NCBI GenBank assembly: GCA_020630065.1
Contig: JAHDCC010000021.1
Span: 2,819-59,504 of the forward strand
Direction of reading: 5' to 3'
DNA from: Acidimicrobiales bacterium
GTDB taxonomy: Bacteria > Actinomycetota > Acidimicrobiia > Acidimicrobiales > SZUA-35
Length of the DNA stretch: 56,686 nucleotides
This document shows positions 7,369 to 21,068 of the stretch, one piece after another (the first letter of the stretch is position 1; each line of letters starts with the position of its first letter). The notes beneath the pieces were generated by a model, which did not search any database, had not been told where the DNA came from, and saw nothing but the letters and a program-made list of their open reading frames with translations. A program made the position numbers and the translations under genes.

Positions 7369-10107
7369 GTGCCGAACGTGGCTCAACCACTTGTCATTGT
7401 CGAATCTCCTGCAAAAGCCAGGACTATCGCCGGTTATTTGGGCGATGAATATGTAGTCGAATCTTCGATCGGTCATATCCGTGACTTGCCGAAGAACGCA
7501 GCCGCTGTGCCCAAAAAGTACAAGTCTCAGAAGTGGTCACGGCTAGGCATAGACGTCGAGAACGACTTCGCCCCCCTATATGTAGTATCGGACGAAAAAA
7601 AAGACCACGTTAAGAAACTCAAGGCTCTACTTAAAGAAGCGACTGAACTTGTTCTCGCAACTGATGAGGATCGCGAAGGGGAAGCGATCGCCTGGCATCT
7701 GCTCGAAGTGTTGAACCCTCGAGTCCCGGTAAAACGGATGGTGTTTCATGAGATCACGCCCGAAGCGATCCAGCGAGCGATCGACAACCCTCGAGAAATA
7801 GATAAACGCCTGGTCAACGCTCAAGAAGCCCGTCGCCTCCTCGACCGGCTCTACGGGTACGAAGTTTCGCCCGTGTTATGGAAAAAAGTTAAACCTCGCC
7901 TTTCGGCCGGACGAGTACAAAGCGTCGCCACCCGGGTCATCGTTGAACGAGAACGTCAACGCATTGCGTTTCAATCAGCGAACTACTGGGATCTGAACGG
8001 AACATTCACCGCCGGATCGGAACGCCCATTCACCGCGATGCTTCTCGAAGTTGACGGCAAGCGGATAGCGAGTGGTAAAGATTTTGCCCAAAGCGGCGAA
8101 CTGAAAGCCGACAAGTTTGTTCACCTCGACGAGGCTCGCGCCCGGTCGTTAGCTACATCGTTAGAAGGCCGCCCGGCGACCGTAGTCAGCCGAGAAGCGA
8201 AACCTCACCGACGCCGCCCAGCAGCACCGTTTATCACCTCGACATATCAGCAAGAGGCAAGTCGAAAACTTCGCCTGTCTTCAGCTCAAGCGATGCGAGT
8301 AGCGCAAGGCCTGTACGAGCGAGGTTTCATCACCTACATGCGTACCGACTCGACGACGCTATCACAGTCAGCGCTCGACGCGGCACGCTCTCAAATCAAG
8401 GAACGTTTCGGGGCCGACTACGTGCCCGAAAAGCCTCGAACCTATCAGAACAAAGTAAAGAACGCTCAAGAAGCCCACGAAGCGATCCGCCCAGCCGGTG
8501 ACACGTTCCGAACCCCTGAACAGGTAGCAGATCAACTCAGCGCACCAGAGCTTCGAGTGTACGAACTGATCTGGAAACGGACTGTGGCTTCTCAGATGAC
8601 CGACGCGGTTGGTGAAACCGTTACGTTGCGTCTCGGCGTCGACTCGGCCAACGGCGAAAACACGACCTTCACCACCTCCGGTACCACCCTCACCCATCAA
8701 GGTTTCCTGAAGGTTTACGTCGAAGGAACCGACGACGTCGAAAAATCCAAAGACGGCAAAGAAAAAGATCAACGCCTCCCAGCGTTGGCTAAAGGCGACT
8801 CGGCGCAGCTGACCACGGTCGAAGCAGCCGGCCACGATACACAACCTCCGGCCCGGTTCACCGAAGCGTCGCTGGTCAAACGACTTGAAGAGTTAGGTGT
8901 AGGCCGACCGTCAACCTACGCCTCGATCATGGGCACAATCCAGGCCCGCGGTTACGCCTGGAAAAAAGGTTCAGCTCTGGTTCCCAGCTACCTAGCTTTT
9001 GCTGTCATCACCTTGCTCGAACAGCACTTCCCCGACCTGGTCGACTACGCGTTCACCGCCCGCATGGAAGACGACCTCGACAACATCGCCAACGGGTCCA
9101 AAGACCAAGGTCCATGGCTGTCACAGTTCTACTTTGGTGAAGACGAAGACCCGGGCCTTAAAGATAAGGTCAACGACCGTCTCGGTGACATCGATGCCCG
9201 AGCCGTTAACTCGATTCCTCTCGGCGCCGACTCCGACGGGGTAGCCATCGTGGCCCGTGTCGGCAAATTCGGTCCGTATCTCGAACGAGGCGAAGACACC
9301 AAATCTATCCCCGACGACATTCCACCTGACGAGTTGACCGCGGAACGGGCCGAAGAGATTCTGGCGGTTCCCGACTTAATCAAACTAGGTGACCACCCCG
9401 AAACAGGTCTCGCTGTAACCGTCCGAGACGGCAAATTCGGCCCGTACGTCCAAATGGGGGAGATGCCAGAGAAAGGCGACAAAGACGCTGAGAAGCCTCA
9501 AACATCGTCGCTGTTCGAGGCTATGGACATGGGCACCGTCACGTTAGACGACGCCGTTGAACTGTTGAAGATCCCTCGAGTGCTTGGGGTCGACCCGTCG
9601 GACGGCCGTGAGATCGTAGCAAAAAATGGTCCGTTCGGTCCCTACATTCACAAAGACCCATTAGAAGAAGGGAAGCGGGCCGAGACCCGATCGTTCCCCG
9701 AAGAAGACCGACTGTTCACAATGACGTTGGACGAGGCGATCAAAATGTTCGCCGAGCCGAAACGCAGACGTGGTCAACGGGCCGCAGCCGGACCGCTTAA
9801 AGAGCTGGGTATCGACCCAACAACCGACAAAGCGGTAGAGGTCAAGTCTGGTCGTTTTGGTGAGTACGTAACCGACGGCGAAATCAACGCGTCACTCACT
9901 GTGAACGACTCGGTAGAACGAATAGACATCACCCGAGCCTCCGAACTGTTGGCTATCCGCCGCCGGAAACTCGAACTTGACCCGCCGAAGCCGAAGAAAA
10001 AGGCCAAAAAGAAGGCGGCAAAAAAGAAGCCAGCTAAGAAAGCGGCAGCCAAGAAAAAGACCGCTAAGAAAGCTACGGCCAAGAAAAAGCCAGCCAAAAA
10101 AGCGTAG
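7369..10107 (+). CDS. topA: DNA topoisomerase I (TopA), actinobacterial type with basic tail
   Basis: 912-aa type IA topoisomerase that relaxes negative supercoils. The N-terminal TOPRIM domain has LVIVESPAKARTIAGYLG and ATDEDREGEAIAWHLLEVL; the catalytic tyrosine is in GFITYMRTDSTTLS (about residue 323). The C-terminal half lacks the four-Cys zinc fingers of the E. coli enzyme and instead has repeated RDGKFGPYV-type modules, then a 45-residue Lys/Ala/Pro tail. This layout is the one known for actinobacterial TopA, where the basic tail increases processivity. The start is GTG 7369 (gtgccgaacgtg). No neighbour is fused or overlapping. Confidence 0.96.
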   Translation: MPNVAQPLVIVESPAKARTIAGYLGDEYVVESSIGHIRDLPKNAAAVPKKYKSQKWSRLGIDVENDFAPLYVVSDEKKDHVKKLKALLKEATELVLATDEDREGEAIAWHLLEVLNPRVPVKRMVFHEITPEAIQRAIDNPREIDKRLVNAQEARRLLDRLYGYEVSPVLWKKVKPRLSAGRVQSVATRVIVERERQRIAFQSANYWDLNGTFTAGSERPFTAMLLEVDGKRIASGKDFAQSGELKADKFVHLDEARARSLATSLEGRPATVVSREAKPHRRRPAAPFITSTYQQEASRKLRLSSAQAMRVAQGLYERGFITYMRTDSTTLSQSALDAARSQIKERFGADYVPEKPRTYQNKVKNAQEAHEAIRPAGDTFRTPEQVADQLSAPELRVYELIWKRTVASQMTDAVGETVTLRLGVDSANGENTTFTTSGTTLTHQGFLKVYVEGTDDVEKSKDGKEKDQRLPALAKGDSAQLTTVEAAGHDTQPPARFTEASLVKRLEELGVGRPSTYASIMGTIQARGYAWKKGSALVPSYLAFAVITLLEQHFPDLVDYAFTARMEDDLDNIANGSKDQGPWLSQFYFGEDEDPGLKDKVNDRLGDIDARAVNSIPLGADSDGVAIVARVGKFGPYLERGEDTKSIPDDIPPDELTAERAEEILAVPDLIKLGDHPETGLAVTVRDGKFGPYVQMGEMPEKGDKDAEKPQTSSLFEAMDMGTVTLDDAVELLKIPRVLGVDPSDGREIVAKNGPFGPYIHKDPLEEGKRAETRSFPEEDRLFTMTLDEAIKMFAEPKRRRGQRAAAGPLKELGIDPTTDKAVEVKSGRFGEYVTDGEINASLTVNDSVERIDITRASELLAIRRRKLELDPPKPKKKAKKKAAKKKPAKKAAAKKKTAKKATAKKKPAKKA

Positions 10108-10123
10108 TCCGGCTAGTTGAAGC

Positions 10124-10139
10124 TGCCGGGGTCGGCAGG
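10124..10139 (+). terminator. Short GC stem-loop after topA
   Basis: ctgcc-ggggtc-ggcag stem, about 17 bp past the topA stop; only 5 bp and no U run, so a weak candidate. The rest of 10140-10272 shows no gene; it must hold the promoter for the GH92-GT4 operon, but I see no convincing -35/-10 pair. Confidence 0.3.
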
Positions 10140-10272
10140 TCCGGTTGATAGATGGGTCTAAACTTTTTCACTAATAGTTAGCGATTCATCCGCCGGAAAC
10201 AAACACGAAATATTGATGATCTACTGTTCTTTCTATGAAGGAACTGGTGGTACTTGATCGGCGAACACGACG

Positions 10273-12486
10273 TTGAGCGATCACGTTGTAGACCCGTTCA
10301 TAGGCACCGGGGTAACGGACCTAGGAGATCCTGAAGGAGTTTCGGCCACATGGTGGTGGCCGAAACCCCAGGTAGGCAACACTCATCCTGGCGCGACGTT
10401 CCCGCTGGGGATGGTATCGGCCTGCGCCTATTCGGGGGCGTACCCCACCGGGTACGGGCAACACCAGTTAGCGACCGAAGGGGTCCCGCCCCAACTATTC
10501 GACCGGCTAGCCGCTTCCGGGTTTACCCACTTCCAACAGTCCGGGACAGGAGCGATCCGCAAGTACTACAACTATCTTCGAACAACCCCAATGCTGGACC
10601 CGCTCGACGATGTCGGCAACAACTGGAACCTCGAAGACGAACACGCCGAACCGGGATATTACCGGACCAAACTATCTTCAGGCATCGAATGTGAACTGAC
10701 AGTCGGCCCTAAAAGCGCCGTCCACCGATACACGTTCCCAGAACACGACGACGCTCGACTCGTAATCGACTTTTCGTTGGGTGGCCTAGCCATAGAACAC
10801 GGCCGGACCGTCCCGGTTAGAGCCCACATCCAGTCATTGGGTCACGGCGTATCCCAAGGCGAACTGATGGTCGAAGGGGTCCCGCTGGCAGTCCACATCG
10901 AATGTGACGCCCCCGAATGGCGTCAAATGTTGTGGTACGACCGTCGCCTCATGCCTGGGGGAACCCAACTCGAATTCGACTACATCCGGCCCACCACGCT
11001 TCGGCCATTCGGCATGCTGTATCGAGGGCCAACAAAACCCGGCCAAACCATCGAGATAAGTTTCGGGTTCTCGCTACGGGGAACCGAACAAGCAAAACAG
11101 AACCTGGTTGAAGACGTAGCCAGTGAACAACCCCGGTTTCAACATCGACGCGACGCCACCACCGCTGTTTGGTGCGATCATTTAGAAACCATCGAAACCG
11201 GCGCCACCGCCGACGATCGTAAAACCGTCTTTGAAACAGCTCTCTACCATTCGCTGATCAAACCGTGTTTCGCTCAAGACGAAAGCCCTTTTTGGGATGT
11301 CGAAGGCCCGTTCGTGTTCGACATTTGCACCCTGTGGGACATTTACAAAACCCAGTTACCGCTGCTAGCGGCGATCGAGCCTGAACGGGCCGTCGAACTG
11401 GCCGTCGCCCAAATCCAGACGTTTGAACAAGAAGGCAACTTCCCGATCGGCTACCGCATGGCCCGCGGCTCAGACCGGTTCTTCCGGCAAGGCAGCAGCC
11501 TTATGCACACCTTCCTCGCTGACCTTTGCGCAATTGGGGTCACCGGAATCGACTGGGACTGGGCGCTCGTCCATATGGAAACCGACCTGCGCCGCAACTA
11601 CGGCGAAGAGTACATCGAAAAAGGTGTTGTCCATCCAGTCAGCCACACCCTCGACTTGGCGACCGCCTACCATTGCACCGCAAAAGTAGCGAGACATCTG
11701 GGCGATGCGGCATCGGCCGAACAGCTTGAAACGCTCTCCGGCTCATGGGTGAACGCATTCGACCCGTCAACCGGGCTGCTGATCGACTCGACGTTCTACG
11801 AGGGCGGTAAATGGAACTACTCGTTCCGTCTGCTGCACGACATGGCCCGCCGAATAGACATTGCCGGTGGTGAAAACCAGTTCTGTGAACTGCTCGACCA
11901 GTTCTTCGGGATCGGGCAGCCGCCCGTCAAACAGCCTTCGGTAAACCCGACCGCATACGACATGCAAGCCGGTTATGCGCTAAACCGCTTCGAAGGTTTA
12001 AATAACGAACCCGACATGGAGACGCCATGGGCGTACCATTACGTAGGTCGACCAGACCGCACCGCCGAAGTCGTACACGCCGCGATAAACAACCAGTTTG
12101 GTTTGGGTCGCGGAGGGCTACCCGGCAACGACGACTCGGGCGGGTTGAGCGCATGGTACGTGTGGGCAAGTCTCGGCCTGTTCCCGGTCGCAGGCCAAAA
12201 CCTGTTCCTGCTGCACCCTCCCTCCTTTGCTCAGAGTCGTCTAAAAGTCGGCTCGAAGAAGGTCACGATCGAAGCCGACGGTTTCGTTGAACCACAGGCC
12301 ACTCGACCGCCACAGTATGTCCAGTCCGTCGAAGTAGACGGCGAACCACTTGACCGCACGTGGATATCGGGCACCGAACTGCGGGCGGCGAACGTCATCA
12401 AATTCTCGCTAGGGGACCAACGGTCCAGCTGGGGCAAAAAAACCCGGCCACCATCGCTTTCAACACAACAAACGATCAAGGAGTAA
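10273..12486 (+). CDS. GH92 family glycosidase (alpha-1,2-mannosidase type)
   Basis: 737-aa glycoside hydrolase family 92 protein. The N-terminal beta domain begins VVDPFIGTG and has GNTHPGATFPLGMVSACAYSG; the catalytic (alpha/alpha)6 domain ends with NNEPDMETPWAYHYVG and GLPGNDDSGGLSAWYVWASLGLFPV, the family's Ca2+ and catalytic Asp region (about residue 617). GH92 enzymes are inverting, Ca2+-dependent exo-alpha-mannosidases. The start is TTG 10273: an in-frame TGA lies 18 bases upstream, so nothing longer is possible. Most GH92 enzymes are exported, but this one has no signal peptide and begins directly at the conserved domain, so it should act in the cytoplasm. It ends 2 bp before the glycosyltransferase gene. 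Confidence 0.87.
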   Translation: MSDHVVDPFIGTGVTDLGDPEGVSATWWWPKPQVGNTHPGATFPLGMVSACAYSGAYPTGYGQHQLATEGVPPQLFDRLAASGFTHFQQSGTGAIRKYYNYLRTTPMLDPLDDVGNNWNLEDEHAEPGYYRTKLSSGIECELTVGPKSAVHRYTFPEHDDARLVIDFSLGGLAIEHGRTVPVRAHIQSLGHGVSQGELMVEGVPLAVHIECDAPEWRQMLWYDRRLMPGGTQLEFDYIRPTTLRPFGMLYRGPTKPGQTIEISFGFSLRGTEQAKQNLVEDVASEQPRFQHRRDATTAVWCDHLETIETGATADDRKTVFETALYHSLIKPCFAQDESPFWDVEGPFVFDICTLWDIYKTQLPLLAAIEPERAVELAVAQIQTFEQEGNFPIGYRMARGSDRFFRQGSSLMHTFLADLCAIGVTGIDWDWALVHMETDLRRNYGEEYIEKGVVHPVSHTLDLATAYHCTAKVARHLGDAASAEQLETLSGSWVNAFDPSTGLLIDSTFYEGGKWNYSFRLLHDMARRIDIAGGENQFCELLDQFFGIGQPPVKQPSVNPTAYDMQAGYALNRFEGLNNEPDMETPWAYHYVGRPDRTAEVVHAAINNQFGLGRGGLPGNDDSGGLSAWYVWASLGLFPVAGQNLFLLHPPSFAQSRLKVGSKKVTIEADGFVEPQATRPPQYVQSVEVDGEPLDRTWISGTELRAANVIKFSLGDQRSSWGKKTRPPSLSTQQTIKE

Positions 12487-15625: not shown

Positions 15626-16686
15626 TTACCGGCATCGACCCGTGGGTCAACCTTGTAGGTCAACAAAAAGTTCGTGAACGGTTGACGGCCGCGGTCGACA
15701 ACATGGTCCACGCCTACCTTTTTCTCGGGTCGCCAGGCAGCGGAACGATGCAAGGAGCGTTAGGGTTCGCCGCGTTAATACTGTCGGACGAAGCCGACAA
15801 CCCCGAGGAGGCTGAACGCGCCGTCAAGCTAGCGGTCGCAGGCACCCACCCGGACGTTGTTGTCATCGAATCCCAAGGTTCTGCCCTTCGAGTTTCCGAA
15901 GCCGACGAGATCGCAAAAGCAAGCATGAGAACCCCCGTTGAAGGTTCGCGCAAAGTGATCGTGGTGCCAAACATCGACGTCATCGAACCGGCCGCGATCG
16001 GTAAACTGCTGAAAGTTATCGAAGAGCCGCCGCCATCAACCGTATTTGTGTTACTCGGCCAGGAAGTAGCCCCCGAATTCATCACCATCGCCAGTCGATG
16101 CGTCACCATCGAATTTGGGCCGCTTTCTGTCAACGAGATTTCAACCGTTCTACAAAACGAAAATCCGCAGGCCGGCACGGCCCGGATCGAGCTAGCGGGT
16201 ACAGCCTCCGGCGGCGACCTTGACCGCGCTAGGTTGTTACTCACCGACGAGGCGTTACATGCCCGTTCACAACTGTGGGCGTCGGTTCCATCAACTCTTG
16301 ACGGGCGAGGAACCACCACCGCTGGGTTGGTCAACGATATTCGAGACGCTATCGAAAAGTCGCTGGAACCGTTAGCGGCGAAACAACAAACCGAACTCGA
16401 AGAGTTAGCTGAATGGGTTGAACGTTTCGGTGAACGCGGCTCGGGTCGTGCCGAGCTGGTAGCGCGCCACAAACGAGAAGCCCGACGGCTTCGCACCGAC
16501 GAACTTCGCTTCGGGTTCGCTATTTTGGCTCGGCACTATCGTGACGCTGCGGTTTCGACCGGAGGTGCTGAAGTGTTTGCGCTCAACGCTATTCAGAACG
16601 CAGCCGAAAATCTCGTTCGAAACCCCAACGAGGTTCTGCTGCTCCAGAACCTGTTCATCACCGTCCAACGAACGTCGGCTCGCTGA
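15622..16686 (+). CDS. holB: DNA polymerase III subunit delta' (HolB)
   Basis: 354 aa from ATG 15622, which overlaps the tmk stop. The N terminus is typical (WVNLVGQQKVRERLTAAVDNMVHAYLFLGSPGSG), and KVIVVPNIDVIEPAAIGKLLKVIEEPPPSTVFVLL is the conserved clamp-loader core, ending in the SRC-like sensor motif (ASRCVTIEF). The P-loop is degenerate: GSPGSGTMQG lacks the Lys, and the zinc-binding cysteines of many delta' subunits are absent. Delta' does not hydrolyse ATP, so this need not affect function. The 3' end overlaps the convergent thpR gene by 29 bp. Confidence 0.88.
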   Translation: MITGIDPWVNLVGQQKVRERLTAAVDNMVHAYLFLGSPGSGTMQGALGFAALILSDEADNPEEAERAVKLAVAGTHPDVVVIESQGSALRVSEADEIAKASMRTPVEGSRKVIVVPNIDVIEPAAIGKLLKVIEEPPPSTVFVLLGQEVAPEFITIASRCVTIEFGPLSVNEISTVLQNENPQAGTARIELAGTASGGDLDRARLLLTDEALHARSQLWASVPSTLDGRGTTTAGLVNDIRDAIEKSLEPLAAKQQTELEELAEWVERFGERGSGRAELVARHKREARRLRTDELRFGFAILARHYRDAAVSTGGAEVFALNAIQNAAENLVRNPNEVLLLQNLFITVQRTSAR

Positions 16687-17266
16687 TCGGGTCGTACAAG
16701 ACTGCATACTTTGCAAAACCCGGTTGGGGCTGATTAAGGTCAGACTCGTACATACGAATTCCCGTTAGACGCGCTTGACCAAAGTTAGCCGATGATCTGA
16801 AGAGTTCACTAATGCTGCTTTGGGTTGCGTCGGGAAGTTCCCGCAACGGTCGACGTAGACGGGCGATAGTGACGTGGGGGCGAAACGTTCGAGGGTCTCT
16901 CTCAATCCCAAATGGCAAAAGGTTTTGGGTGAGAGTCGCTGCTGCTTTGATTAGCTGGGCGTCAGGTTGAGGTTTGATCCAAAGCACACTGGCGTTGTCG
17001 ATAGTGGGAAAAGCGTCAACTGACGTGAGGTCTACTGTCGGCTGGTCGAAGCCTTCCGTTGTGTCTTTAACTACGTCAGCCAACAATGGAACGATGCTGG
17101 GCTCGACGTCACTGATGAACCGCAACGTTATGTGAAGGTCCTCAATCAGGGTTGCCCGAACATCATTGCCGATTTCGGTTAGCTGGTTGAGTACAGCAAT
17201 TAGACTGGCCGTCGGTTCGACACCCACCGCAACGAACACGCGCCGAGTGGACCTCGTAGCCTTCAT
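16658..17266 (-). CDS. thpR: RNA 2',3'-cyclic phosphodiesterase (ThpR/LigT, 2H family)
   Basis: 202 aa from ATG 17266 (MKATRSTRRVFVAVGVEPTAS); the frame is open to 17341 but that part is Cys-rich and unlike the family. The two catalytic H-x-T/S motifs of 2H phosphoesterases are DLHITLRFISDVEP and RPHVTIARLRRPL, about 85 residues apart as expected. The family opens 2',3'-cyclic phosphate ends and was first described as a tRNA 2'-5' ligase. Its tail overlaps holB on the other strand. Confidence 0.9.
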   Translation of the reverse strand: MKATRSTRRVFVAVGVEPTASLIAVLNQLTEIGNDVRATLIEDLHITLRFISDVEPSIVPLLADVVKDTTEGFDQPTVDLTSVDAFPTIDNASVLWIKPQPDAQLIKAAATLTQNLLPFGIERDPRTFRPHVTIARLRRPLRELPDATQSSISELFRSSANFGQARLTGIRMYESDLNQPQPGFAKYAVLYDPISEPTFVGR

Positions 17267-17362
17267 AGTTGGACTAATCGGGGGAACGTTAAACTGCCGA
17301 CGCAGATAAGACCGTCCACAGTGACATACTACACACTGCATGTTGTGCTCGTAAAGAGCTGA

Positions 17363-18502
17363 TCAGGGGTAATAGGGCGACGCTGTTGGTTCACCGGGAG
17401 GGTTAACCGCCAGACGTCCCCAGTTGAAACTAACGTCGTTGTCGCTTCGGGGGGTGACAGACGAGACGGCGTACACGAAAAACTGTTGACTGAAAAGTTC
17501 GCTCGAAATCTGTTTCGATGTGTCGAAGTCTGACTGCTCGAAATATTTGACCCCGTTGACAAACAACGTTAGTCGATCGACGGTCAGCTCCAGCCGAAAC
17601 CGGTCGAGGCAATCCCGAGGGTCGGCTCCTGTTGCACAATGGCGAAAAAACTGTCGATTATCTACCGAGTCATTCCCGCCAAACGAAGTTTGACCGGCCG
17701 GTTCAAACCACGAGGCTGTCCAGTTAGTTGACGGGTTAGCACCGACACGTTGATCACAAACGACATTATGGGTGGCCTCAATACGGCAGCCGATAGAAGT
17801 TTCACTCTCGAAATAGTCGAACCCGAAAATGCCGGTGGTGTCATCTGGACTTGAACCAGTGCTGACTATCAACTCCACCCAAGTCTGCTGCCCGTATTCC
17901 TCACGTCCGGCAGCGACGTCGGCTTCGACCACGATCATGCCATCGGCTGCAGTGAACGGCTGCTTAGGCCGAACGAGAACGTTTCCGTGCCCGTTCTGTG
18001 TCACGTTAACCGACCAACGATCCGCCCCTTCAGAAACGACAGTCAGGTCGTCGAACCCACGATCAACAGTGTTGTAGTCGCCAGGGTCGTAGCTGCTGGG
18101 ATTGAACACAACCGGTGCCGAACCGTCGACGCTATCAGTTGCGGTATCCGGTGTTGTCTCCGGTTCGTCTACCGGCGGTTCGACCTCAACAACATCTTCG
18201 CGTATTGAGGTCGTCGAACCTGTAGATGGCTCGGTGACCGAACTTTCCGATGCTGCAGTGCTGATGTCTTGTGGAGATGAGCGTTGCGATACGAAAAACA
18301 GGACCGACATGCCAACAACGGCAACGATGCTGGCCGCTACCGCGAACACTCGGCTGCCGGGAAAGGAACGATGAGACGAGACGTCGATACTGGTCGATTG
18401 GTTCGGTTGTGTTTGGTCGGACACGGCGCCGTCAAACACGGCGTCAGCGCCCCGTGGTTTGCCTCTCCGACTTCTTCGAGCCAGTTCTTCTTCGATGTTC
18501 AT
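17363..18502 (-). CDS. Probable anti-sigma factor with single TM helix and lectin-like extracellular domain
   Basis: 379 aa. It has a short cytoplasmic N terminus of about 55 residues starting MNIEEELARRSRRGK, one TM helix (VFAVAASIVAVVGMSVLFFV), a Ser/Thr/Pro/Glu-rich linker (to about residue 125) and a C-terminal beta-rich domain of about 220 residues. Its start overlaps the stop of the ECF sigma gene (ATGA), the usual place for an anti-sigma gene. No classical zinc (ZAS) motif is seen. The outer domain shares a pattern with the secreted protein encoded divergently: (D)FT..G.....V, W.E..I.......G, YAVSSVTPRSDNDVSFNWG here against HAYTPQKANNVDNYTFHWD there. I infer a concanavalin-like fold that senses a ligand and releases the sigma factor. 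Confidence 0.7.
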   Translation of the reverse strand: MNIEEELARRSRRGKPRGADAVFDGAVSDQTQPNQSTSIDVSSHRSFPGSRVFAVAASIVAVVGMSVLFFVSQRSSPQDISTAASESSVTEPSTGSTTSIREDVVEVEPPVDEPETTPDTATDSVDGSAPVVFNPSSYDPGDYNTVDRGFDDLTVVSEGADRWSVNVTQNGHGNVLVRPKQPFTAADGMIVVEADVAAGREEYGQQTWVELIVSTGSSPDDTTGIFGFDYFESETSIGCRIEATHNVVCDQRVGANPSTNWTASWFEPAGQTSFGGNDSVDNRQFFRHCATGADPRDCLDRFRLELTVDRLTLFVNGVKYFEQSDFDTSKQISSELFSQQFFVYAVSSVTPRSDNDVSFNWGRLAVNPPGEPTASPYYP

Positions 18503-19044
18503 GACATGTCACCATCTACTATTGTTCGAAGTTTTCTTCGAGCCCGTGACGCTCTCAGACGCACCGCGTTTTCAGTCATTTCCAGTTCGTCGCCGATAAA
18601 TGCCATCGACCTTCCTTCGACTTCAGCCAAATAAAGAATGGCTCTGTCTAACGGTTCGAGATGTTCAAGGTCAGCCAAATCCGACGGATAGGTGGCCGAC
18701 ACATCTTCGGCGGCACCGATCCTGGCCCACGCCCGCCGACGCCTACCTAAACTGCGTCGCCGGTTACTGGCCACATGATTGATGGCTCGGCGAAGATAGG
18801 CGCGAGGGTTGTCTAACTCGTCGAGCGAATGATGCTGTAACGTTCGGGCGAGAGCTTCCTGAACCAAATCGTCGGGATCTAAATCGAGGGGCCCCATCGC
18901 CGCGGCGTATGACCGTAACGACGGGTACTGTTCAGCAAAAATGTCGCGGTTCGTTTTTCGACCGGCACGCCCCGAAGACCCCACAACACTCAACACTACC
19001 GGCTTCGTTTCACCTGTGTTCAACGCTTCGACAAATTGGGGCAC
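18499..19044 (-). CDS. ECF-type RNA polymerase sigma factor
   Basis: 181 aa. Region 2 is FAEQYPSLRSYAAAMGPLDLDPDDLVQEALARTLQHHSLDELDNPRAYLRRAINHVASNRRR, and region 4 is LDRAILYLAEVEGRSMAFIGDELEMTENAVRLRASRARRKLR. The first possible start is GTG 19044, which would lie within a few bases of the transcription start predicted from the upstream motif (19051-19079), so the mRNA could be leaderless; GTG 18996 or 18984 are alternatives closer to region 2. It is co-transcribed with the TM anti-sigma candidate and divergent from the secreted protein. Confidence 0.92.
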   Translation of the reverse strand: MPQFVEALNTGETKPVVLSVVGSSGRAGRKTNRDIFAEQYPSLRSYAAAMGPLDLDPDDLVQEALARTLQHHSLDELDNPRAYLRRAINHVASNRRRSLGRRRRAWARIGAAEDVSATYPSDLADLEHLEPLDRAILYLAEVEGRSMAFIGDELEMTENAVRLRASRARRKLRTIVDGDMS

Positions 19045-19050
19045 AACCTA

Positions 19051-19079
19051 TAGACACCGCAAATGGCCAAAACATGTCA
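19051..19079 (-). promoter_or_regulatory. Predicted ECF promoter for the sigma operon
   Basis: On the minus strand: TGACATG (19079-19073), 13 bases, CGGTGTCTA (19059-19051). The same two blocks with the same spacing occur in the opposite direction at 19102-19130. ECF promoters are bipartite with a -35 and a GTC-containing -10 block, so this is very probably the autoregulatory promoter. Confidence 0.8.
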
Positions 19080-19101
19080 ACAAAATTTTGGCGGATTCTT
19101 C

Positions 19102-19130
19102 TGACATGATTCGCCGCCTATCGGTGTCTA
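19102..19130 (+). promoter_or_regulatory. Predicted ECF promoter for the secreted protein gene
   Basis: TGACATG (19102-19108), 13 bases, CGGTGTCTA (19122-19130). It is identical in both blocks and in spacing to the promoter of the divergent sigma operon. The leader to ATG 19188 would be about 50 nt and contains a GGGAAGGAAC ribosome-site region. Confidence 0.8.
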
Positions 19131-19187
19131 ACACAGCGTTGGGTGAACACACCTAACCCGTAGGCGGGAAGGAACAATCCATATCTC

Positions 19188-21068
19188 ATGGACCGATTGA
19201 CGACACGAACAATAACCGTAGTTTTGGCTGCGTTTGCCACACTGCTTGGTGTGCCGACCCTGGTGTTGGCCTCCACGTCAGGTGGAGCAGGCACGGTCAC
19301 GCCCGTGTACACAGATTCGTTGCAAAGCGGCATGCAGAACTGGTCGTGGGCTGACACGGTCGAAGGCGACAACTTGACAGTAACGTTCGACGAATTCGAG
19401 GCGCTGTTTCTTTCAACCCCGGAACCCATAACCCTTGGATCGGACACGAACTCGTTGGTTTTTACCGTCGATGCTACACCGGCCAGTTCGGTTCAACTTG
19501 AAGTTCTTGTCTTCGAACAGGACTGGCAGGTGAACGACAAGTTCAGTGTCGAAACCAACACCCAAACGGCGGTCGAGTTCGAACTCGAACTCGGTTCGAC
19601 CTCAACCGTTCGTGCCCTATGGTGGCGCAACGTCAGTTCAGACACCGTCGGCCCCGTAGTGTTCGACGACATCAAACTCGTCGGCAGTGACCAAGTCGAC
19701 GAAACCGTCCCAGCCGACACAACACCGGATTCGGGTGTAGTACCTGAGATCGAACCACCGGAGCAAACACCTCCGGTGGAATCAACGCCGGAAACTCCGG
19801 CAGCTGAACCAACCCCAGACGGGTTCGCTCTGTTCGAAACATTCGACGGCGCACCCGATGGGCCAAGCCAGTCACTACTGCCCGACAACTTCGACTTCGC
19901 GTTAACCCATCGCACCCATCCGGGAGACTCAGTCGGGCCGTTTGACCCGTTCCCCGGCGATCATGGCGACGACTGCGGCGGGCCTCCGACCCCAACCGCA
20001 GCGTTCCCGTCGCACCAAATTTCGACCAGTCACGATTCGAACGGCACCAACCCTGACGAAGCGTTCTACATTTGCCGCGACCATATGATGACCGCGTTAG
20101 GTGACGTCGCCGGATATTCGGTCAACGCCTACTGGCCTCAACAAGAGTTCGACTTTACTGAAGGAGGCAAACTCACACTCGACGTCAACATCGACGAAAA
20201 AGGCCCACGCCTGTGGTGGGAAGTCATGATCGTGCCGGCCGACAAACTTCGCATCGGCGCAGCAGAGGAAATCTGGCCGATCGACGAAACCTACCCGGGT
20301 GAACGTATCGTCTTCGAATTCCGAGAAAACAAACGACGTATGCACACCGCCACCGGATCAGGTTCACAAGGCCGCACAGCGGACGTCTTCGTTGAGGAAT
20401 CCACATTCGCGCAACGGCATCCCGACCATCCGGCCAACACTGACCGTCGACCACGACTCACCCACGAGTTCCGATTCGACCCCGACGCCAACATGATCTG
20501 GTGGGACATCGAACACGAAGACGGTTCGTTCGACCAAATGACCTACACCCTGTCCGAAGATATGCCAGTCACCAAAGGCCTTGTGGTTGTCACCCAACAC
20601 GCATACACGCCGCAGAAAGCCAACAACGTCGACAACTACACGTTCCATTGGGACAACTTCGGGTTCACGGGTCCGGTAACGGGAACATATGAATCTTACG
20701 AAGCCGACAGTGCTGTGTATCTGGAAGCCAACGGTGACCGGCCGATCGGTGATTCCGAAACCGTCACCATCGACATTCCGTCGGTGCCCGCAGACCCGAA
20801 GATGTTTGGGCAGCTGCACGCCCCGGCCAAAGGACAAGTTCTGTTATCAGTCAACGGGAGCGAACCGTTTGAGGTTCACGCTGACGAATATCCGAAAGAT
20901 AACTGCACGTCGGAAGGGTGGGCGTCGTTCACCACCGACATCGACCCAGCATTGCTGCGTGCAGGTTCGAACGACTTCGAATGGATTGTCGGACCGCGCC
21001 CTGCGTGCAGCGACGGATACCCGTGGGATGGGTTCTCAGTCAAGTCGTTAGAGATCCAGGCCCGATAA
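19188..21068 (+). CDS. Large secreted protein with lectin/CBM-like domains, ECF-controlled
   Basis: 626 aa. A signal peptide (MDRLTTRTITVVLAAFATLLGVPTLVLAS) leads to a first beta-rich module of about 130 residues ending VVFDDIKLVG, which resembles carbohydrate-binding modules. A Thr/Pro/Glu linker (about 170-210) follows, then a central domain (about 215-500) rich in Trp and acidic residues (WWEVMIVPADKL, NMIWWDIEHEDGSFDQ, YTFHWDNFGF), and a C-terminal module of about 120 residues with two Cys that may pair. I do not recognise a catalytic motif. The central domain resembles the outer domain of the anti-sigma candidate. I infer a cell-surface or released polysaccharide-binding protein or enzyme controlled by the neighbouring ECF factor. 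Confidence 0.72.
   Translation: MDRLTTRTITVVLAAFATLLGVPTLVLASTSGGAGTVTPVYTDSLQSGMQNWSWADTVEGDNLTVTFDEFEALFLSTPEPITLGSDTNSLVFTVDATPASSVQLEVLVFEQDWQVNDKFSVETNTQTAVEFELELGSTSTVRALWWRNVSSDTVGPVVFDDIKLVGSDQVDETVPADTTPDSGVVPEIEPPEQTPPVESTPETPAAEPTPDGFALFETFDGAPDGPSQSLLPDNFDFALTHRTHPGDSVGPFDPFPGDHGDDCGGPPTPTAAFPSHQISTSHDSNGTNPDEAFYICRDHMMTALGDVAGYSVNAYWPQQEFDFTEGGKLTLDVNIDEKGPRLWWEVMIVPADKLRIGAAEEIWPIDETYPGERIVFEFRENKRRMHTATGSGSQGRTADVFVEESTFAQRHPDHPANTDRRPRLTHEFRFDPDANMIWWDIEHEDGSFDQMTYTLSEDMPVTKGLVVVTQHAYTPQKANNVDNYTFHWDNFGFTGPVTGTYESYEADSAVYLEANGDRPIGDSETVTIDIPSVPADPKMFGQLHAPAKGQVLLSVNGSEPFEVHADEYPKDNCTSEGWASFTTDIDPALLRAGSNDFEWIVGPRPACSDGYPWDGFSVKSLEIQAR

Follow-up and report, generated by a model that had tools for sequence, protein, structure and literature searches.

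In the SigI-RsgI systems of Clostridium thermocellum, the regulon of each sigma factor correlates with the polysaccharide that is sensed by its anti-sigma factor, according to the part of PMC6056542 drawn on here. Among actinobacteria, a type of extracytoplasmic function (ECF) sigma factor with a carbohydrate-binding domain, ECF52 (SCO4117 in Streptomyces), is described in an excerpt of PMC5826349; the words carbohydrate, lectin and glycan have no occurrence in the ECF review PMC8103513. The locus presented here lies in a stretch of 56,686 nucleotides from an uncultured actinobacterium of the Acidimicrobiales (assembly GCA_020630065.1, contig JAHDCC010000021.1, positions 2,819 to 59,504), the whole of which is called the window. 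An operon in this window encodes an ECF sigma factor, P0002, and a predicted membrane anti-sigma factor, P0001, and a divergent gene encodes a secreted protein, P0003. It appears that the bacterium uses a lectin-shaped membrane sensor to switch on a secreted protein that carries a domain of the same shape.

Gene pair, divergent partner and promoters

P0002 is small and has sigma regions 2 and 4 only (E 1.4e-8 and E 2.5e-9, both above the Pfam cut-off), which makes it an ECF factor. P0001 is composed of a short N-terminal part, one hydrophobic segment and an extracellular domain, and positive residues ahead of the hydrophobic segment suggest that the N-terminus lies inside the cell. The open reading frames and positions described in an initial reading of the letters of this DNA (the sequence-only reading) match the window (Table 1). 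In the source genome (G000, 3.70 Mb), searches found a single place each for P0001 and P0003, while P0002 found itself and, in two weak matches, other sigma genes.

The subfamily of P0002 has a sharp boundary: of 61 genomes, 14 contain a total of 15 matches at E <=1.3e-24, and the next-best match is at 6.7e-14; the matches begin near residue 24 of P0002. Three further members from G038, G079 and G148 bring the set to 18 sigma genes. Beside these, 15 partner proteins carry the motif RGxxRG[AGS]xx[VLF][WFL], the RG box, in a short N-terminus before a hydrophobic segment; no such partner was found for the sigma gene of L026 (contig end), for that of L069 and for one of the two in L070. The motif occurs in the first 60 residues of 7 of 514 called genes, all 7 being such partners, against a background that is incomplete, as some genes, both inside and outside the window, were overlooked by the gene caller. 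Five of the 15 ectodomains are P0001-type and the others differ on reading, one of them looking like a beta-propeller. Because the RG box is kept across partners with differing ectodomains, it is the predicted sigma-binding part.

It is highly probable, on sequence grounds, that P0002 and P0001 form a sigma/anti-sigma pair. Alternatively, P0001 could be a lectin-like surface protein that is just another target of the sigma operon, a reading to which the cytoplasmic part of about 50 amino acids lends itself, as Pfam and NCBIfam gave no anti-sigma domain match for it. For P0001 as a whole, the sole Pfam match up to E 1 is DUF3379 at 0.27, and NCBIfam gave none. This alternative is very unlikely: the genes overlap by 4 base pairs, P0001 has the topology of a membrane protein, and the RG box recurs in 15 partners whose ectodomains differ. 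Moreover, in the portion of PMC7406223 used here, class I anti-sigma domains average 101 amino acids and domains shorter than 50 amino acids are set aside as possible class II; with its length of about 50 amino acids, the P0001 part suggests a class II-like anti-sigma domain.

In the 143-base intergenic region between the operon and the P0003 gene, one bipartite element, TGACATG-N14-GGTGTCTA, occurs in both orientations. The strict pattern TGACAT-N16-GTGTC has exactly two matches in G000, both being the divergent promoters of this locus, and exactly two in G148, one ahead of the sigma gene and one ahead of the secreted-protein gene 2.8 kb further on; read backwards, it has none in either genome. 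When the window was scanned with the form ending in GTGTCT and at most one mismatch, 2 matches were obtained versus 0.20 expected.

In the wider subfamily, NG[AT]CA[CT]-N16-G[CT]GTC is found near the start of 12 of the 18 sigma genes (0.016 expected per window), a count that is partly circular as the expression was written after several upstream regions had been read. The same box at spacers of 12-15 and 17-20 gave 0. A slightly looser expression was applied to 30 further gene starts and matched four: that of P0003, that of the G148 secreted-protein gene, and those of the P0003-type secreted genes in G038 and G034. The four are precisely the secreted genes taken from genomes that also yielded a P0001-type sensor. 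None of the remaining 26 starts matched; they include eight close P0003 relatives in genomes where no P0001-type sensor was found, the G018 sigma gene of L012, and the secreted genes of L142, L145 and L146, from genomes outside the sensor searches. The boxes of L013 and L014 had been noticed by eye before the gene-start test; the spacer controls are less affected by these two biases. Some starts call for comment: the start codon used in L014 falls inside a longer possible open reading frame, that of L070a was placed by hand, the box follows the first start codon of the frame in L063 and L069, and L119 has fewer than 200 bases upstream.

Several promoter results weigh against a shared control of sensor and secreted genes. 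The spacer control at the gene starts gave one match at 12 (L119) and one at 18 (L109), versus 4 at 16. Ahead of the G038 sigma gene the looser form has no match, and the match of the G034 sigma gene is at -221 only. Genome-wide scans were made with the strict pattern only, since chance matches would swamp the looser one; the secreted genes of G034 and G038, with [CT]GACAG, go undetected by the strict pattern. Of the 11 strict matches in the other genomes (G018 1, G020 1, G034 6, G038 3), none falls at a sigma or secreted gene; the one on G034:C323 is some 2.4 kb upstream of the sigma gene there. Read backwards, the pattern was matched once in these genomes, in G038.

Control of the secreted gene by this sigma factor, an assumption of the sequence-only reading, is supported by the shared promoter. 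An autoregulatory promoter common to the sigma operon and its target, as in ECF/membrane anti-sigma systems, is present at the level of sequence, and a regulon of two promoters is very likely. As the strict regulon consists of these two promoters, a specific rather than a general stress signal fits.

Just 7 bases lie between the GTGTCT box and the GTG taken as the sigma start (window 19044); therefore, either the message is leaderless or the true P0002 start lies further in. Downstream, 21 base pairs after the anti-sigma gene and on the same strand, a gene for a LigT-like 2'-5' RNA ligase/phosphoesterase (window 16658-17341, Pfam E 3e-14) may be co-transcribed with P0001.

Table 1. Genes, domains and promoter elements of the locus, in window coordinates
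Feature	Position	Strand	Basis or remark
P0001, predicted membrane anti-sigma factor, 379 amino acids	17363..18502	-	4 bp overlap with sigma gene; topology
P0001 ectodomain, predicted concanavalin A-like jelly roll, residues ~140-370	17393..18085	-	AlphaFold2 model and PDB matches
P0001 transmembrane helix, residues ~52-73	18284..18349	-	read from sequence
RG box RGKPRGADAVF, P0001 N-terminal part, predicted sigma-binding element	18434..18466	-	motif common to 15 partners
P0002, ECF sigma factor, 181 amino acids from GTG	18499..19044	-	Pfam Sigma70_r2 and r4_2; TIGR02937 above cut-off
Promoter of sigma/anti-sigma operon, TGACAT-N16-GTGTC	19053..19079	-	one of two genome matches
Promoter of secreted-protein gene, TGACAT-N16-GTGTC	19102..19128	+	one of two genome matches
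P0003, secreted protein, 626 amino acids	19188..21068	+	signal-peptide-like N-terminus (read from sequence)
P0003 N-terminal domain, residues ~31-172	19278..19703	+	also in 6 aligned relatives
P0003 central domain, predicted concanavalin A-like, residues 214-498	19827..20681	+	weak AlphaFold2 model; profile match to P0001 ectodomain
P0003 C-terminal domain, residues 499-626	20682..21065	+	also in 8 relatives

Relation between the sensor and secreted domains

The sequence-only reading had pointed to landmarks that occur in the same order in the P0001 ectodomain and the P0003 central domain. These are indeed present (FTAADG and FTEGGK; WVELIV and WWEVMI; VTPRSDNDVSFNW and YTPQKANNVDNYTFHW) and are aligned together by profiles. 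A search of the source genome with the single P0001 sequence found itself only and did not link it to P0003, and P0003 has no match in Pfam (up to E 1) or NCBIfam. In profile-to-profile comparison, the P0001-type and P0003-type domains match at E 0.0016-0.0048 in six shallow comparisons, at E 7e-5 with 7 versus 26 rows, and at E 2.6e-6 with a probability of 88.6% with 10 versus 29 sequences; the alignment is collinear across 216 columns if a long alignment is requested. Taking out the window rows leaves the match unchanged (88.7%). As for the controls, the best of 200 column shuffles reached E 0.007 and a probability of at most 5.5%, a reversed profile gave 0.1%, and nine other pairings of the P0001 ectodomain, the central, N-terminal and C-terminal domains of P0003 and kinase ectodomains gave at most 5.0%. 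From profile to sequence, the best match within the sets is that of the P0003-type model to L017 (E 7.1e-7), and no reversed sequence fell below 0.32. Regarding the composition of the sets, L015 is omitted from C26 and C29, though it is in one of the shallow-comparison sets; L021, which is cut by a contig end, is omitted from A1, A3 and A9 and retained in E10; and L019 is not in A9. Searches of PDB sequences gave one match for profile A4, a homeobox protein at E 0.91, and none up to E 10 for profile A3.

Other results weaken this relation. The probability drops to 6.9% once the C-terminal 22-35 residues are trimmed, and the P0003 subfamilies used singly give 1.2% and 12.4%. On the window proteins themselves, the P0001-type model matches the P0003 domain at E 0.32 and the P0003-type model matches P0001 at E 0.011. 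The putative homology of the two window domains thus hinges on deep profiles and on their C-terminal part, and the sequence evidence taken alone is moderate.

The predicted folds provide independent support. AlphaFold2 modelled the P0001 ectodomain from 8 sequences with a predicted local distance difference test score of 82 and a predicted template modelling score of 0.86; for the P0003 central domain, modelled from 4 sequences, the corresponding values are 48 and 0.48, which is a weak model. Fold likeness was judged from the matches of each model to PDB structures. VIA-align placed the lectin domain of Emp47p first for the P0001 ectodomain (Z 14.3, root-mean-square deviation 3.4 A, 192 residues) and that of Emp46p first for the P0003 model (Z 13.3, 3.2 A, 189 residues), and its two top-50 lists have in common Emp46p, Emp47p, 5zbt, 1oq1 and several GH16 enzymes. 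In Foldseek, the nearest structure to the P0001 ectodomain is Emp47p (E 4.1e-7) and the P0003 model finds legume lectins and others (E 1.3e-6). The agreement on Emp46p and Emp47p is therefore found in VIA-align only, and the P0003 matches are tentative because the model is weak, two points that count against the likeness. Still, where different folds could have emerged, both models match the concanavalin A-like lectin/GH16 fold. From these models, a shared concanavalin A-like fold is very probable, and common descent of the two window domains is likely, if somewhat less so.

The catalytic signature of GH16 enzymes is, in simplified form, E-x-D-x-(x)-E on the central strand. Both window domains retain W-x-E, aligned by the profiles, and the signature is absent from 10 of 10 P0001-type and 28 of 29 P0003-type domains. 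The lone match, EFDFTE in the P0003 of the window, is not on the W-x-E strand and lacks conservation. An identity as GH16 enzyme was rejected, since the signature is missing at W-x-E; for the same reason, lectin-like binding is likelier than hydrolysis.

It could be argued that the shared fold is incidental, the jelly roll being a common scaffold, and that the sensor answers another cue, for example envelope stress or a protease, with P0003 merely one target. Concanavalin A-like folds are indeed widespread, other partners in the same sigma subfamily have different ectodomains, and the profile relation weakens after trimming. This explanation is nonetheless improbable, as the nine other domain pairs show nothing comparable to this profile relation, the strict regulon of two promoters fits a specific signal, and G148 pairs domains that are directly homologous.

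The trio and its parts in other genomes

A search with P0001 matched 6 of 148 genomes, including its own, the match in G034 being confined to the N-terminal part. Profiles detected P0001-type domains in 4 of the 397 genomes searched from the order, one of which (G009) has a short fragment, in 5 of 39 genomes of the family and in 1 of 19 genomes of the family of G148. The genomes counted as having the sensor are G000, G018, G020, G034, G038 and G148. Two candidates were rejected as sensors: the P0001 match of G036 covers the linker only (query 60-136) and the profile match of G009 has 39 positions with a stop. A search of genome contigs with P0001 alone, over 96 stretches, gave no relative.

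The sequence-only reading had proposed to look for the sigma/anti-sigma/secreted trio elsewhere, and it was found in three genomes, G148, G034 and G038. The cleanest case is G148, where the sigma factor (L122, 7027-7488), the anti-sigma factor (7485-8483) and the secreted protein (9831-10820) follow each other with two other genes between; the ectodomain of its anti-sigma factor and its secreted protein are 37% identical over 210 amino acids, a direct homology. In G034 and G038, two separate contigs are involved, one carrying the sensor and the other a P0003-type secreted gene whose promoter is similar. A point against the trio as a fixed unit is that the secreted partner was not found in G018 or G020, two of the 6 sensor genomes. 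G020 is 81% complete and its sensor is near a contig end. G018 has a second, different pair of an ECF factor and a membrane protein (L012), with a P0003-type ectodomain (E 3.1e-17), so that either domain type seems able to act as sensor.

In seven of the eight close relatives of P0003 (L024, L025, L026, L105, L106, L107 and L108; not L109), the gene is divergent to one for a membrane protein that resembles a kinase and has an outer domain, and an FHA-type regulator comes next. The kinase is recognized by Pfam in L026 and L105; in L105, so are FHA and a winged helix. The same effector thus seems to be wired to a different sensor, a Ser/Thr kinase. A resemblance of the kinase ectodomain to P0003 was rejected (0.0, 0.1 and 0.2% with the central, N-terminal and C-terminal domains, respectively). 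The N-terminal domain of P0003 is also present in six of these eight relatives. The contig of L026, from G079, carries a sigma gene of the P0002 subfamily (11443-12048) in addition to the P0003 relative and the kinase, and ends just after this sigma gene. In G347, three tandem proteins have a P0003-type domain (L110, 6582-11773) and N-terminal parts that are all different.

Relatives and their neighbours hint at the ligand. Phage-like contigs (L139/L147, L140/L148 and L149) carry P0003-type domain proteins. Three IMG/VR contigs contain relatives of this domain, which is joined to LysM in L140 (E 1.4e-6); the neighbours include endolysin-like genes in L140 and L149 and, in L139, a tail-collar-like gene. 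Possibly, the proteins of the phage-like contigs are cell-wall-binding virion or lysis proteins. No match was obtained by tblastn with the P0003 domain in phages or with the L139 domain in plasmids, and viral scans with A6, A2 and A7 gave no further contig. A P0001-type secreted protein is encoded near an endolysin-like gene in L146. Two further neighbourhoods were named by reading the sequences: in L111, a P0003-type protein amid glycosyltransferase-like genes, and in the Chloroflexi contig L142, a P0001-type protein beside sugar-epimerase-like and polysaccharide-deacetylase-like genes. Together with the lectin fold, these contexts make a glycan the rather likely ligand, and the evidence leans to a cell-wall polysaccharide or an exopolysaccharide.

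Proposed circuit and comparison with known systems

The explanation that is preferred, and that as a whole is somewhat more probable than its rivals taken together, is that P0001, P0002 and P0003 form a dedicated signalling trio. P0001 would hold P0002 at the membrane through its short N-terminus with the RG box, and its lectin-like ectodomain would detect a ligand outside the cell, for which a glycan from the cell surface or the surroundings is the most likely candidate. Upon detection, P0001 would be inactivated, probably by proteolysis, and P0002 would transcribe two units from the near-identical divergent promoters, i.e., its own operon (autoregulation) and P0003. Because the central domain of P0003 has the same predicted fold as the sensor, effector and sensor probably recognize the same or a similar ligand. 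That the ligand is strictly the same for both has slightly less than an even chance; many proteins have a concanavalin A-like fold, and sharing it is no proof of a shared ligand.

The circuit might also measure its own output, with the sensor detecting P0003 itself or competing with P0003 for the ligand. In PupR-PupB, both partners contain the same small fold. This feedback is retained as a rival because the outer domain of the sigma regulator in that system is bound to the signalling domain of its partner (PMC7186176, in the part used here). In the locus of the window, sensor and product are related and made together, and in G000 and G148 the strict promoter matches comprise the operon and one product only. 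The contact between sensor and product is conjectural, and the sensor of G018 occurs with no secreted partner found, which leaves feedback unlikely. In a more elaborate version, which is more doubtful still, the secreted protein would be a free relative of the sensor domain that competes or pairs with the sensor, so that the sigma factor would read the balance between ligand and secreted lectin. The operon and this single product would make up the entire regulon, and lineages would rewire the parts, pairing the effector with a different sensor (a Ser/Thr kinase plus an FHA regulator) or, as in G148, the sensor with a different effector.

If the dedicated trio holds, the logic of a sensor that looks like its product, known from SigI-RsgI, would extend to ECF factors in Acidimicrobiales, using lectin-like domains that have no Pfam or NCBIfam match. 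The putative regulon of two promoters is small enough for sensor, signal and output to be tested in isolation. In addition, short anti-sigma candidates whose ectodomains are exchangeable can be recognized as one family by the RG box, and the 16-base spacer of the promoter provides a rule for predicting targets in uncultured genomes.

The predicted fold of both domains is that of L-type lectins (Emp46p/Emp47p, ERGIC-53) and GH16 glucanases, from which they differ by the lack of a Pfam match to these families (no lectin match up to E 1) and by an identity of 5-18% in the listed structural alignments. In ECF52, as described in the excerpt of PMC5826349, the carbohydrate-binding domain, a transmembrane region and a zinc finger are inside the sigma factor, whereas here sensor and sigma factor are separate and P0002 has sigma regions only. 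Unlike in PupR-PupB, which is FecR-type, there is no outer-membrane transducer, the fold is a concanavalin A-like jelly roll, and the contact between sensor and product is only a candidate. The closest comparison is with SigI-RsgI. The sequence-only reading had suggested that the sensor carries the same kind of module as the secreted protein it regulates, and this likeness is borne out by predicted fold and profiles in the window and by direct homology in G148. Shared with SigI-RsgI, as far as the cited part of PMC6056542 describes it, are an autoregulated sigma factor, a membrane anti-sigma factor with an outer sensor, and products matched to what is sensed. The differences are that P0002 is an ECF factor (Sigma70_r2, r4_2, TIGR02937) and not of the SigI type, that P0001 lacks the RsgI N-terminal domain (Pfam up to E 1), that the domains are lectin-like, without catalytic signature and unmatched in Pfam and NCBIfam, and that the strict regulon comprises one secreted protein, in a host that belongs to the Acidimicrobiales and not to the Clostridia. 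The P0001-P0003 system therefore works like SigI-RsgI but is not a member of it, and by analogy we infer that it would sense its substrate in a comparable way.

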